Shown one piece after another: positions 3,365 through 7,621 of a stretch of DNA of 11,597 nt (its first letter is position 1; the number at the start of each line of letters is the position of its first letter). Made by a program: the position numbers and the translations under genes. The notes beneath the pieces are model-generated. The model saw only the letters and a program-made list of their open reading frames with translations. It did not search any database and was not told where the DNA came from. The stretch is taken from contig JAKAPU010000075.1 of assembly GCA_021806865.1 (NCBI GenBank), positions 1 to 11,597 on the forward strand, read 5' to 3'. Origin of the DNA: an archaeon. GTDB lineage: Archaea > Thermoproteota > Nitrososphaeria > Nitrososphaerales > CADDZS01.

Positions 3365-3670
3365 TCAGCCCCGGAGCATATCTTTCTGCGATTTTGAAGA
3401 GCCAAACACGCCGAAGATCAGAAGGATTCCTGAAACGACTGCGAACACAACTCCATAAACAACCTGCATCCGTGCGGCGTCGGCCAGAAAAGCGATCCCC
3501 GAATCCGTCGGCGAGAGTCCGATGGGACACGGACCAAAGTTTTCGCAACTTGCTATGGTGGCGAGCCTTTCATAACCGGAGACGAGCACTGGCAAGACGA
3601 ATGCCATGATCAAAGCGCCCACTATCAGAAGTCCCTTTCTCAACGCGCTCCACCGAAATCCCTCCTCCAC
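3365..3670 (-). CDS. Small two-helix membrane protein with an extracytoplasmic loop
   Basis: The longest reading gives 101 residues from GTG 3670. A TTG at 3643 (residue 10) is likely the true start. A TATA-like TTTATTA sits only 14 nt before the GTG, so that codon would be upstream of the transcript start, whereas CGGTGGAG lies just before the TTG as a ribosome-binding site. Helix 1 is LLIVGALIMAFVLPVLVSG (residues 14-32) and helix 2 is VVYGVVFAVVSGILLIFGVF (70-89). The loop between them (33-69) contains a Cys pair (CENFGPC) that could form a disulphide outside the cell. The tail is short and basic. I recognise no family. It converges with the membrane protein at 2962-3306. Confidence 0.65.
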   Translation of the reverse strand: MEEGFRWSALRKGLLIVGALIMAFVLPVLVSGYERLATIASCENFGPCPIGLSPTDSGIAFLADAARMQVVYGVVFAVVSGILLIFGVFGSSKSQKDMLRG

Positions 3671-3680
3671 TGCGTTCGAC

Positions 3681-3687
3681 TAATAAA
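3681..3687 (-). promoter_or_regulatory. TATA box for the minus-strand membrane protein
   Basis: Read on the minus strand, TTTATTA (in TTGTTTATTAG) predicts a transcription start near 3658. This is downstream of the GTG at 3670 and 15 nt upstream of the TTG at 3643, and is the main argument for the TTG start. Confidence 0.45.
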
Positions 3688-3777
3688 CAATTGAAGGAGA
3701 ACAAGGATTAACAAGCTACAAACCGCGGCGCGCCGTACTGATCAAGCGTCCAGAACGGTTAATATCCGGAGTTCTGT

Positions 3778-3797
3778 AGTATTACTGCAATAATACT
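3778..3797. promoter_or_regulatory. Palindrome AGTATTA-N6-TAATACT, possible operator/promoter
   Basis: Perfect 7-bp arms flank a 6-bp centre (CTGCAA). The right arm also looks like a TATA-type box (AATAATACT). It would place a plus-strand transcription start near 3818, just ahead of the structured G-rich element. A dimeric regulator could bind here, or it may simply be part of the promoter. Confidence 0.35.
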
Positions 3798-3838
3798 TGA
3801 CTCGATCCCGCAAGGTGCCTTTGTGTCTCGCGTTTTTC

Positions 3839-3966
3839 CTATCTTTGATCATGGATTTTTTCCCAAGGAAAAGCAGCAGAGGGCCCCCCGGGGGAGGGGA
3901 GGGGGGTGGGGGGGACCCCCGGGGGTGTCTTGGTTAGTACTGCTGATCCATGATCAGGGCAGATAG
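3839..3966. other. Predicted three-way-junction element enclosing a G-quadruplex motif
   Basis: Outer arms TGATCATGGAT (3846-3856) and ATCCATGATCA (3946-3956) pair perfectly over 11 bp and are extended by CTATCT (3839-3844) with AGATAG (3961-3966). Directly inside, TTTTCC-CAA-GGAAAA (3858-3872) forms its own hairpin. CAGCAG (3874-3879) then pairs with CTGCTG (3940-3945), which abuts the outer right arm. The enclosed apex (3880-3939) carries the G and C runs. Several helices that fit together without overlap argue for a selected fold in RNA or single-stranded DNA. I know of no matching RNA family. Confidence 0.5.
3890..3914 (+). other. G-quadruplex motif G5-A-G4-A-G6-T-G7
   Basis: Four uninterrupted G runs (3890-3894, 3896-3899, 3901-3906, 3908-3914) are separated by single bases, the arrangement known to favour very stable parallel quadruplexes. 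It is flanked by C6 (3884-3889) and by C5G5 (3916-3925), which could instead pair with the G runs as hairpins. Confidence 0.7.
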
Positions 3967-4000
3967 AAGTTGATGATCATTCGTAGTATAGAACAAGAGA

Positions 4001-4026
4001 GGAGGGTACCCCCTGGGGGAGGGGGT
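4001..4026 (+). repeat. Second G/C block related to the G-quadruplex element
   Basis: GGAGGGTA is followed by C5-T-G5-A-G5-T. It shares CCCCC[C/T]GGGGGAGGGG with 3885-3899 and so looks like a diverged copy or a recurring building block. It contains the palindrome GGGTACCC and a possible C5-T-G5 foldback. Confidence 0.5.
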
Positions 4027-4045
4027 AGACTGTGTCTATCTATCT

Positions 4046-4063
4046 AGTTACCAAGAAGTAACT
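4046..4063. repeat. Hairpin AGTTAC-CAAGAA-GTAACT
   Basis: A perfect 6-bp stem with a 6-nt loop, extendable by a T-G and a C-G pair, closes the unusual non-coding region. On the minus strand it lies downstream of the orphan antitoxin gene. No T-tract follows in either direction, so terminator function is unclear. Confidence 0.4.
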
Positions 4064-4149
4064 GGACAAACAACGAGAGAGGAAACACGATTGAAATCAG
4101 ATGAAATTGTAACGCTTGGGGCAGATTCACAAGAGGGTGTTCGGGCAGG

Positions 4150-4422
4150 TCATCTTGTAAACCGAGCGTCCCTGCCGCCCGAGGCTCTTCTGTCCGCCGT
4201 AATCTTTGCCTCTATCTCTTCGACACTTTCTTCCTTCCAGGCCCCGATGAACCGATCAAGACTCCCGCTCGGAGCTTTGGCGGCGCGTGTTATCACATCC
4301 GAGAGTGATTCAGATTCTTTCTTAGCTCTCTTCAATCTCTCGTACGCTTCCTCAGAAAGTGAAACCTTGCTTATCTTTTGCCAAACTTTCGTATCATCTA
4401 CTCTTGGAAAAATTGATCTCAA
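4150..4422 (-). CDS. vapB: VapB-type antitoxin (DUF217 family), apparently without a toxin
   Basis: ISKVSLSEEAYERLKRAKK, followed by ESESLSDVITRAAK, matches the N-terminal DNA-binding part of the archaeal VapB antitoxin family DUF217 (consensus ISLSEEAYERLK...ESFSDVI). GSLDRFIGAWKEESVEEIE then resembles its toxin-binding tail. Such antitoxins neutralise a VapC PIN-domain RNase and repress their own operon. Start choice is poor: no ATG is in frame. TTG 4422 gives 90 residues, TTG 4464 gives 104 but would overlap the divergent aminopeptidase start. The family motif begins only about 18 residues after TTG 4422, so the 5' end may be eroded. No vapC follows. The TGA is overlapped by an ATG frame (MTCPNTLL, then stop) and then by the G-rich region, so the toxin is missing or lost. 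Confidence 0.7.
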   Translation of the reverse strand: MRSIFPRVDDTKVWQKISKVSLSEEAYERLKRAKKESESLSDVITRAAKAPSGSLDRFIGAWKEESVEEIEAKITADRRASGGRDARFTR

Positions 4423-4443
4423 CGCTGACAGGCAAGGGAATCG

Positions 4444-5502
4444 ATGAGCACTGAAAAAGCTCAATTACGCAGTGCTCGAGCAGAATGGAACATGGGCTCA
4501 ATCGAACAGGGAGCGAAGAACGCCGTCGAAACGTGCATGGGAGTGAAGCGGGGAGAAAGGGTGCTGATAGTGACTGACGAATCCCAGCTCGGGGTGGGGA
4601 GAGCGCTGAAAAAGGCAGCTGAAAAGATCACCGGAGGGGAGAACGTGCGCATGTTTGTCTTGGAAAAGATAGCAAGTAGGCCGCTGCAGAGCCTCCCGAA
4701 GCAGATCGACGACGAGATCCCGAGATCAGACGTGACCTTCTGGGCCGCGCGGAGCCTTCCCGGAGAGCTGGGTGCGAGACACAGTTTCATCAACGAGGCA
4801 AAGGCGCACGCGAGGCACGGGCACATGCCGAACATCACGGCGACCCTGATGGAACAGGGGATGTGCGCCGACTACAACGAGGTCTACGAATTGACGCACA
4901 GGGTCTACGACTCTGTCAGGGGAGCGAGAAAAATAGAGGTGTCGAACGATCTCGGAGCAGACATCGTGGCCGAGTTTGACAGATCATGGCGCTGGGTTCC
5001 GAGCGACGGACGATACCACGAGAAGGGCAGGTGGGGAAACCTTCCCGAGGGAGAGACCTTCACAGCCCCAAAGAGGGTGAACGGGAAACTGGTGACAAAC
5101 TTGCTGGGAGACTGGTTCTCCGAGAAGTACGGGAACTTCAAGGAAACAATGACGCTTTCAGTCAAGGACTCCAGAATTGATTTGAGCTCGATTCAGACAG
5201 AAAACGGCTTACTGAAGCAGGAGATCACAAAGTACCTCTCGACCGACGAGAACAGCAACAGGGCGAGCGAGTTTGCGCTGCCCACAAATCCGATCCTGAT
5301 CTCTTTACCCACGATAGGAAACCTCCTCCAGGACGAGAAGGCGAGGGTGCACATCGCATTCGGCGATCCCTATCCGGACGAGACGGGCGCTGACTGGGAA
5401 TCAGGGACGCACGTCGACATGCTGCTGGAGAGGTGCGACGTCAGGGTAGACGGGAAGGAACTGATGCGCGGCGGAAAGTATGTTTTCTCTGATCGCACTT
5501 AA
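4444..5502 (+). CDS. M29-like metallo-aminopeptidase
   Basis: The 352-residue protein fits the aminopeptidase T/AmpS family (M29), which removes N-terminal residues from peptides in the cytoplasm with two metal ions. The N-terminal domain shows the family signature VKRGERVLIVTDES (34-47). The C-terminal domain carries GNLPEGETFTAP (198-209, E204 a likely ligand), ASEFALPTNP (274-283, E276), VHIAFGD (302-308, H303) and GTHVDML (321-327, H323 and D325), the places where M29 enzymes hold their metals. Size is slightly below the usual 370-410. Family similarity starts near residue 18, so ATG 4492 (M17) is an alternative start. It is the first gene of an apparent operon with enolase, which overlaps its end by 23 nt. 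The divergent vapB start lies about 20 nt upstream. The ligand assignments come from memory of the family. Confidence 0.82.
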   Translation: MSTEKAQLRSARAEWNMGSIEQGAKNAVETCMGVKRGERVLIVTDESQLGVGRALKKAAEKITGGENVRMFVLEKIASRPLQSLPKQIDDEIPRSDVTFWAARSLPGELGARHSFINEAKAHARHGHMPNITATLMEQGMCADYNEVYELTHRVYDSVRGARKIEVSNDLGADIVAEFDRSWRWVPSDGRYHEKGRWGNLPEGETFTAPKRVNGKLVTNLLGDWFSEKYGNFKETMTLSVKDSRIDLSSIQTENGLLKQEITKYLSTDENSNRASEFALPTNPILISLPTIGNLLQDEKARVHIAFGDPYPDETGADWESGTHVDMLLERCDVRVDGKELMRGGKYVFSDRT

Positions 5503-6838: not shown

Positions 6839-7621
6839 ATGCCGTTCGAATTCATCCAGTATTCAAAGCCAAAGGAAAACTATGCGAGGATAACGATCAG
6901 CCGGCCGGAAGTCATGAACGCCCTAAACTTGCAGGTGAGAAAGGAGATAATCGAAGCTTTGGACATTGCGGAGAAGGACGACTCTGTCAGAGCAGTGGTG
7001 CTCACGGGAGCGGGGGAAAAGGCATTCAGTGCGGGAGCAGACATCAACATGTTCCTAACCATGACGCCGTACTCGGCAAAGGAGTACCTGAAGACGAGCA
7101 AGGGAGCTTCAAACAAGTTGGAAAGCTTTCCAAAGCCGGTCATCGCGGCCGTGAACGGCTACGCCATAGGTGGAGGACTAGAGCTTGCGATGTCTTGCGA
7201 CATTATCATCGCGTCGGAGAACGCGAAATTCGGGCAGGGCGAGATCAACGTGGGAGCAATACCAGGCGTTGGGGGAACGCAGAGACTCCCGAGGCTCGTT
7301 GGCATAAAGAAAGCAAAGGAGATGATTTACACCGGGGACTTGATAGATTCATCCGAAGCATTGAGATTGGGTCTGGTGAACCGCGTCGTTCCACTCCAAG
7401 ACCTCTCAAGGGTTGTGGAGGAGCTCGTGGACAAGATCTCTTCAAAGAGCCCAATGATACTTAGGCTGGCAAAGGATGCCCTGAACCATTCGGTCGCAGG
7501 ACTAGCCGAAGGACTGGATTACGAAAGCGCTCTCTTTGCTTTCTGCTTTTCGACGAGCGATCAGAAGGAGGGGGCAAGAGCCTTCCTCGAAAAGCGAAAA
7601 CCAGTTTTCAAGGGAAACTAG
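6839..7621 (+). CDS. Enoyl-CoA hydratase/isomerase family protein (crotonase)
   Basis: The 260-residue protein has the normal crotonase length. The CoA-binding and oxyanion-hole segments are KAFSAGADINMF (61-72) and GYAIGGGLELAMSCD (107-121). Both hydratase glutamates are present: E115 in GGGLELAM and E135 in GQGEINVGAIPGVGGTQRLP. It is therefore expected to be an active hydratase adding water to 2-enoyl-CoA thioesters. In autotrophic Thaumarchaeota a close relative acts as crotonyl-CoA hydratase/3-hydroxypropionyl-CoA dehydratase in the 3-hydroxypropionate/4-hydroxybutyrate cycle. Fatty- or amino-acid degradation is the alternative, and sequence alone cannot decide. The gene starts 12 nt after the enolase stop, so it is probably co-transcribed. 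Confidence 0.92.
   Translation: MPFEFIQYSKPKENYARITISRPEVMNALNLQVRKEIIEALDIAEKDDSVRAVVLTGAGEKAFSAGADINMFLTMTPYSAKEYLKTSKGASNKLESFPKPVIAAVNGYAIGGGLELAMSCDIIIASENAKFGQGEINVGAIPGVGGTQRLPRLVGIKKAKEMIYTGDLIDSSEALRLGLVNRVVPLQDLSRVVEELVDKISSKSPMILRLAKDALNHSVAGLAEGLDYESALFAFCFSTSDQKEGARAFLEKRKPVFKGN

Follow-up and report, generated by a model that had tools for sequence, protein, structure and literature searches.

What kind of element is the run of nested inverted repeats and G tracts that lies between two minus-strand genes of an archaeon of the class Nitrososphaeria, and does it act as DNA or as RNA, if it acts at all? We addressed this question in contig JAKAPU010000075.1 (assembly GCA_021806865.1), the whole 11,597 nt of which we refer to as the window. 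An earlier note on this DNA had described positions 3839-3966 as a three-way junction capped by a G-quadruplex and had offered three readings: an unknown non-coding RNA, a replication or recombination site that extrudes from DNA, or a protein-binding switch between hairpin and quadruplex forms. The reading that we tentatively prefer, at a probability somewhat short of even, takes it as a structural repeat between genes that is specific to this lineage and similar in kind to intrastrand triplexes or quadruplex hairpins; here it would have been elaborated into a three-way junction, and it would act at the DNA level.

Anatomy of the element

The helices and the G5-A-G4-A-G6-T-G7 tract were found where the earlier note had placed them. 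The perfect 11-bp outer stem, the separate 6-bp hairpin and the 6-bp inner stem are all present (Table 1), and the outer stem is the sole perfect 11-bp inverted repeat in the window at a gap of up to 130 nt. The G tract occupies 3890-3914, with C6 before it and A followed by C5 after it. The description of the helices as having almost no unpaired bases was too strong: a simple model leaves 14 nt (3926-3939) and a T/GGGC internal loop unpaired. Three features had gone unmentioned, namely 6-bp closing arms, C5G5 palindromes round the G tract and a second core. The two CCCCCGGGGG palindromes (3885-3894 and 3916-3925) pair mutually in the folds, and the second C5-T-G5-A-G5 motif lies 83 bp past the first core. 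The element is located between called genes, and short ORFs of 46-47 aa cross it. As a separate observation, four of the nine TGATCA sites in the window (3739, 3846, 3951 and 3974) fall within 241 bp round the element, two of them in the outer arms.

Table 1. Features of the element and its immediate surroundings (window coordinates)
Feature	Position	Strand	Remarks
Small membrane-type protein gene, left flank	3365-3670	-	no Pfam match
A/T-rich near-palindrome GTATTACTGCAATAATAC	3779-3796		upstream of the small membrane protein gene; found by reading
Closing arm CTATCT	3839-3844		partner 3961-3966
Outer stem, left arm TGATCATGGAT	3846-3856		partner 3946-3956
Side hairpin TTTTCC-CAA-GGAAAA	3858-3872		6 bp (3858-3863 with 3867-3872), 3-nt loop
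Inner stem, left arm CAGCAG	3874-3879		partner 3940-3945
G/C core: C6, G5-A-G4-A-G6-T-G7, A, C5, G5	3884-3925	+	CCCCCGGGGG palindromes; class II and class I run order
Linker TGTCTTGGTTAGTA	3926-3939		unpaired in the simple model
Inner stem, right arm CTGCTG	3940-3945
Outer stem, right arm ATCCATGATCA	3946-3956
Closing arm AGATAG	3961-3966
Second core CCCCC-T-GGGGG-A-GGGGG	4009-4025	+	inside TACCCCC...GGGGGTA (4007-4027); direct repeat with the first core
VapB-type antitoxin ORF (PF02697), right flank	4150-4464	-	without VapC-like ORF downstream

Folding and chance expectation

Whether RNA or DNA parameters are used, either strand of the element adopts nearly the same fold. When compared with dinucleotide shuffles, the RNA fold gave z = -2.25 on the plus strand, where 3 of 200 shuffles did as well, and z = -5.25 on the minus strand (0 of 200), and DNA parameters gave -5.32 and -5.45 (0 of 200 on each strand). 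The named arms are Watson-Crick paired, and the equal folding of both strands with DNA parameters is as expected for a DNA structure. When the flanks alone were shuffled round an unchanged G/C core, z was -3.67 (plus) and -4.68 (minus), none of 1000 shuffles being as good on either strand; with the core removed, shuffles folding as well numbered 8 of 1000 (plus) and 1 of 1000 (minus).

The nested helices sum to 23 bp, a value that none of 200 Markov copies of the window reached (maximum 22). Among 173 other loci (1.27 Mb), nine have nested helices of at least 23 bp, and these nine consist of eight viral contigs chosen for their core and the poly-G junk locus L016. Flank folding energy is as low in 166 of 4058 natural control windows, the lowest eight all coming from locus L003. 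As for base runs, a stretch of 145 bp contains 9 of the window's 14 G or C runs of at least 5, a clustering matched by 0 of 20000 random placements; C5-N0-6-G5-N1-6-G4 is found twice on the plus strand of the window versus in none of 2000 Markov windows. Based on these shuffle, Markov, natural-control and G/C-run results, we conclude that the core plus arms together are real and that the arms alone are weak evidence. The earlier view that chance is unlikely to produce such an arrangement thus holds for the core and arms combined, but the arms alone are moderately unusual.

Triplex and quadruplex potential

At a stem length of 5, class II run order (Y-R-R) occurs at 3884 and 4009 and class I order (R-R-Y) at 3901. 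The triplex stems are either 5 nt, with loops of 1/6 and 1/1, or 7 nt (one mismatch) with loops of 9/1. The core contains four G runs, the number needed for a quadruplex, and ViennaRNA with quadruplexes allowed prefers that form (-92.6 versus -61.1 kcal/mol, RNA parameters).

Published definitions apply to the element to a different extent. The ITxF rule (PMC4666352) specifies three stems of 6-15, loops of 1-6 and at most one mismatch when the stem is 7 or longer; it gave no matches above 60% G+C for purine classes I and II on either strand of the whole window. The 9-nt stems of TM_ECO/BoxC, CCCTCNCCC ... GGGNGAGGG N3 GGGNGAGGG, are longer than any triplex stem found in 3830-4060, where the maximum is 7; the C tract of the first core is C6, not CCCTCNCCC. 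Of the properties given for archaeal quadruplex repeats in PMC8044849, the four G runs, the 3' C-rich tract (A C5) and the intergenic position are present. Those repeats are also defined by at least four copies per genome; the window itself has, besides the first core, a second and different one at 4009-4025.

Phylogenetic placement and apparent variability of the locus

In the enolase tree, the window is sister to exactly G405, G355 and G404 with support of 94/94, a bootstrap value slightly short of that at which the tool awards a star; the tree represents one gene in 11 rows, with G391 and G003 on long branches. Enolase identity to the window is 75% for G405, 73% for G355 and 72% for G404, and 69% or less for the other seven. 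The nearest genomes found are thus at no more than 75% enolase identity, and G405, G355 and G404 make up a three-genome genus.

The element seems to reside in a changeable stretch beside an orphan antitoxin, because the spacing differs at locus L001, the left-side ORFs were not found ahead of the G405 enolase and the M29 gene was not found in any of the three genomes of the sister genus. At L001, 156 bp separate the M29 gene from a 35-aa piece that is 49% identical to the small membrane protein; the corresponding distance in the window is 849 bp, about 690 bp more. None of six window ORFs from the left of enolase was found in the 6.9 kb before the G405 enolase, the G405 stretch being the one that reaches far enough for this comparison. 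The M29 gene has no match in G405, G355 or G404 (E 1e-20). On the right of the element, beyond the VapB ORF, the window encodes an M29-type aminopeptidase, enolase and enoyl-CoA hydratase. Enolase, an acetyltransferase and three more ORFs, including NfeD, are found in G405, G355 and G404; the G405 stretch lacks the hydratase, and none of the three stretches has the V4R protein.

A VapBC pair was considered for the right flank and rejected, as the antitoxin is there and a VapC-like ORF downstream is not. Among 15 vapB relatives (tblastn, 17 loci), 11 have a downstream PIN/VapC-like ORF, judged by eye and not by family scan. The best-scoring class relative of the window vapB (L033 in G004) has, also by eye, no adjoining PIN-like ORF either. 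On the left, the near-palindrome GTATTACTGCAATAATAC is a possible candidate operator of the minus-strand gene. Farther left, positions 1-813 hold an open-ended minus-strand ORF with 42-nt tandem repeats coding for a Ser/Thr-rich tail; it has no Pfam match and is probably a cell-surface protein.

Search for copies of the element

The element has no match in plasmids and phages (blastn), and region 3835-3970 gave chance hits of 14-20 bases alone in five near genomes. When 400 class genomes were queried with 3670-4445, 17 had a hit at E <=0.01 (best 4.9e-5), and none of the 8 places inspected out of 18 displayed arms plus core; two places, L016 and L032, proved to be poly-G/poly-C junk. Viral contigs contain no exact arms, and there is no second arm copy in the window. 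Two candidates were discarded: a single viral hit to TTGATCATGGATTTTTTCC (left arm plus hairpin), which is without the right arm in the stretch examined, and L019, which in part resembles the side hairpin and inner arm and has no right arm in the 201 nt viewed.

The core was also searched for by itself. The strict pattern CCCCCNGGGGGAGGGG has two matches in the window, both between genes and with starts 125 bp apart, and occurs in 2 of the 400 class genomes, at three places in DNA of 59-63% GC that sit under stop-free frames of 105, 411 and 522 codons. The looser C5N1-6G5N1-6G5 is present in 6 of 121 order genomes, with shared flanks in G405 alone among the inspected sites. Outside G405, the core, whether strict or looser, coincided with stop-free frames of 105-546 codons at all 8 measured places, and because they lie under such long frames these cores were not treated as kin. 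Frame length is a poor marker of coding, and a weak one to argue from: the stop-free frames at three G405 sites are 106, 362 and 91 codons, and those of the window's two cores 67 and 151.

Dispersed repeats in the sister genus

Three core sites with common flanks in G405 were extended by a DNA search (40 of 67 candidates scored) to 41 matches, representing at least 40 distinct copies of about 80 nt or more; the same search gave no match in the two genus mates. The repeat is about 140-200 bp long, mostly intergenic, has the core GGGGTACCCCCTAGGGGGAGGGG and is spread over a genome of 2.6 Mb (L186-L215, L216-L239). Thirty copies were fetched, of which 26 entered alignment A2 after three with a different left half and one shortened copy (L214) were dropped. 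The consensus reads TACAATATTTGTAA ... CATTGAAAAC ... GGGGTACCCCCTAGGGGGAGGGG ... AGCTAGCTAATGTCTTTCGAGTTAGGGCAGGTCTTGGGTACAGGTCTTTTGATCAGGTCT, with CAGGTC(T) recurring at steps of about 13 nt to the right of the core and ACCT motifs to its left. Overlap of more than 40 nt with an ORF of at least 100 aa is absent from 25 of 27 copies. A downstream ORF of that size is on the same strand in 16 of the 23 copies having one, and 4 of 27 are without any.

Across the 26 aligned copies, the longest helix between the left flank, with its ACCT motifs, and the right flank, with its AGGT motifs, averages 8.6 bp, as opposed to 5.5 bp with shuffled left flanks. Copy-specific compensation was considered and rejected: flanks of the same copy (8.6 bp) and of different copies (8.7 bp) pair to the same length, so the pairing is a family-wide feature. 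The G runs past the palindrome vary from GGGGGAGGGG to GGAGGAGGATCG, which indicates that quadruplex capacity is not strictly kept there. The consensus RNA fold is weak (-8.4 kcal/mol, 16 pairs, one with two-sided change). Seven G405 repeat loci compared with Rfam gave just three tRNAs in L196 at gathering score and none for the repeat.

A covariance model of the G405 repeat, run over 122 genomes, identified 24 places in G405 and one weak place each in G355 and G082. The G355 place (L217) led to 7 places, itself included, that have 20-38 nt in common, CCCCCTAGGGGG being part of them (L244-L250). This G355 repeat carries GGGCCCCCTAGGGGG and is distinct from that of G405. A GGGGGG run follows the core in 6 of the 7 places, the seventh being cut by the contig end, and TTGTATAATACAA-type palindromes follow in 3 of the 7. 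A/T-rich palindromes are found near the cores of G405 repeats and of some G355 repeats. G404 has one similar-looking intergenic palindrome (L264) among the 3 of 4 C5N0-2G5 sites inspected, the other two being covered by frames of 172 and 570 codons.

On the forward strand of the nine family genomes, the counts of C5N0-2G5 are 28 in G405, 10 in G355, 4 in G404, 3 in G005 (one overlapping), 2 in G002, 1 each in G252 and G004, and 0 in G001 and G391. The reversed control pattern occurs 14 times in G405, 5 times in G355, 7 times in G404 and not at all in the remaining family genomes; in G404 the control is therefore commoner than the pattern itself. Five sites viewed in G252, G002, G004 and G005 have stop-free frames of 132-531 codons.

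Relationship of the element to the sister-genus repeats

The G405 and G355 repeats resemble the window element in having a C5 and G5 core with a further G run in most copies, a nearby A/T-rich palindrome, a location mostly between genes, membership of the same archaeal family and, in G405, outer inverted motifs. They differ in that theirs is a CCCCCTAGGGGG palindrome with a TA centre, and their flanks cannot be aligned to those of the window.

A profile of 27 G405 copies, applied to the window alone, ranked 4002-4049, which holds the second core, first (E 1.2e-4), followed by 7156-7200 in the hydratase gene (E 0.005) and by 3848-3901 of the first element (E 0.17). When 1.3 Mb of control loci were included (nhmmer), 4002-4049 scored 15.1 bits (E 0.013), and a GC-rich viral locus (17.9 bits) and L217 of G355 (16.1 bits) both scored above the window. 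The core-less, tail-only G405 model did not find the element, and the G405 covariance model gave E 0.21 for the window. We infer the tie to the G405 and G355 repeats from the kind of core they share with the window, their place between genes, the resemblance in layout and the sister-group placement; the repeats and the element may have a common descent.

Comparison with known structural repeats

Kaplan et al. reportedly described, in 2016, an E. coli switch between G-quadruplex, hairpin and duplex, a three-state idea that matches the third option of the earlier note. That switch is bacterial and is not known to include a three-way junction.

Two families of repeats are closer in form. BoxC/PIT/TM_ECO of E. 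coli and other bacteria, as characterized by Holder et al. 2015 (PMC4666352), share with the window an intergenic location, a C run followed by at least two G runs (class II), the potential for hairpin, triplex and quadruplex, a link to variable loci and copy numbers that differ sharply among close relatives. In the window, by contrast, the stem measures 5, or 7 if one mismatch and a loop of 9 nt are allowed, instead of 9; the sequence is another one and the host is archaeal. The window also has a three-way junction, 11-bp arms and a G tract flanked left and right by C runs. The same paper portrays the E. coli intrastrand-triplex motifs as intergenic, stable in vitro and present in variable loci, and reports neither a stable triplex in vivo nor promoter or terminator activity for them. 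The repeats of Methanomicrobiaceae (Chashchina et al. 2021, PMC8044849) are, like the window, archaeal and intergenic, with four G runs and a C tract just 3'. They have loops of 1/3-5/1 and C3TC3 and belong to an unrelated lineage, whereas the window has loops of 1/1/1, a C5G5 palindrome and a 5' C tract as well. According to that paper, these recurrent quadruplex repeats with adjoining 3' C tracts switch in vitro between hairpin, triplex and quadruplex; when annealed with K+, one of two long oligonucleotides refolded from hairpin/triplex towards quadruplex, unlike the second. A narrow search of the open-licence literature, covering titles and the openings of abstracts, returned no account of such repeats in Nitrososphaeria.

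Alternative explanations

Several other explanations were weighed against a structural repeat acting on DNA. A structured RNA, whether a small RNA or a leader, could be made from the gap, most likely from the minus strand toward the small membrane protein gene. The three-way-junction shape, the minus-strand RNA fold (z -5.25, no shuffle of 200 as good) and the predominance of same-strand downstream ORFs in G405 would agree with it. However, the whole window has no Rfam 15 match at gathering score, the G405 consensus folds weakly with little covariation (two-sided in 1 of 16 pairs) and, with DNA parameters, the window element folds as well on one strand as on the other; we therefore regard such an RNA as rather unlikely. 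A search of 3671-4149 against Rfam with E up to 1 gave one lncRNA hit (E 0.2), far below its gathering score, and no tRNA or tmRNA was found; a retron ncRNA was rejected, there being no reverse transcriptase among the 14 distinct window ORFs scanned with Pfam. A non-autonomous, MITE-like mobile element is unlikely. Its terminal inverted repeats would be the outer arms, and the insert would have come with or beside the orphan vapB, in keeping with the inverted arms of 6 and 11 bp, the additional sequence relative to L001 and the dispersed G405 copies with their left ACCT and right AGGT motifs. Yet no target-site duplication was seen by eye at the element ends, the arms have no second copy in the window, the five near genomes offer only chance hits, and neither the inspected class places nor plasmids and phages contain the element.

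Chance or a neutral relic, that is, inverted arms and G runs without a selected role, appears improbable. Arms nested this strongly do occur in other loci (9 of 173), and the flank energy is not extreme; on the other hand, core and arms coincide and are nested, no flank shuffle with the core fixed was as good, two cores lie within 145 bp, and the sister genus has its own repeats. Most improbable of all is that the G tracts, or the join through them, are a sequencing or assembly error (collapsed low complexity). Two-colour poly-G is a possible source of false G tracts, run lengths of 5-7 are hard to call, and junk with long mixed G and C runs is present in G164, a class MAG (L016, L032). The window runs, however, are 4-7 long and interrupted, whereas junk runs reach 19 and pair run with run alone; complementary arms that are not G/C lie on both sides of the core, and G405 has dozens of repeats whose core is similar. 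Furthermore, the flank proteins P0126 (left, on two contigs) and P0121 (right, on one) have the same sequences as in the window except for the start residue. Each is recorded with a longest contig of 91,708 bases, and from this equal length we take it that another assembly probably carries both flanks together. For the M29 protein (P0001), the sole contig on record is the one of 11,597 bases, which a common contig of the two flanks does not explain.

Proposed mechanism and implications

Among the three options of the earlier note, the DNA-level switch between hairpin and quadruplex fits best, given the triplex run order and the sister-genus repeats; what speaks for an RNA is the fold, and a replication or recombination site is possible. 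For the preferred structural repeat acting on DNA, the G/C core (C6, runs of 4-7 G, C5G5) could exist as duplex, hairpin, intrastrand triplex or quadruplex, and would sit at the end of a three-way junction that resembles a cruciform. Strand opening by replication, transcription or negative supercoiling would allow the arms to pair and the side hairpin to fold, after which the G-rich strand may lock as a quadruplex or triplex. The locked form could make polymerases pause, be bound by a protein or draw repair, thereby marking an intergenic site prone to change. Pictured in this way, the element would serve as a strand-opening switch, a polymerase or protein site, or a rearrangement spot, and elements of its kind would have expanded independently in neighbouring genomes within one archaeal family.

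A bolder proposal, which we consider fairly unlikely, is that one family has repeatedly raised genome-wide sets of intergenic triplex/quadruplex switches built from a C5/G5 palindrome and G runs. The window's switch, set in a three-way junction, would then be a programmed extruding site read by a dedicated protein, such as a chromosome organiser or a transposase-derived or regulatory protein.

Repeats capable of duplex, hairpin, triplex and quadruplex forms are known in some bacteria and methanogens, and their function is not agreed. A Nitrososphaeria family with differing sets (at least 40 copies, 7 places and one site) provides a natural comparison through which to ask if these elements are mobile, control genes or mark sites of rearrangement. 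To this the version in the window adds a defined three-way junction that is open to direct structure probing.
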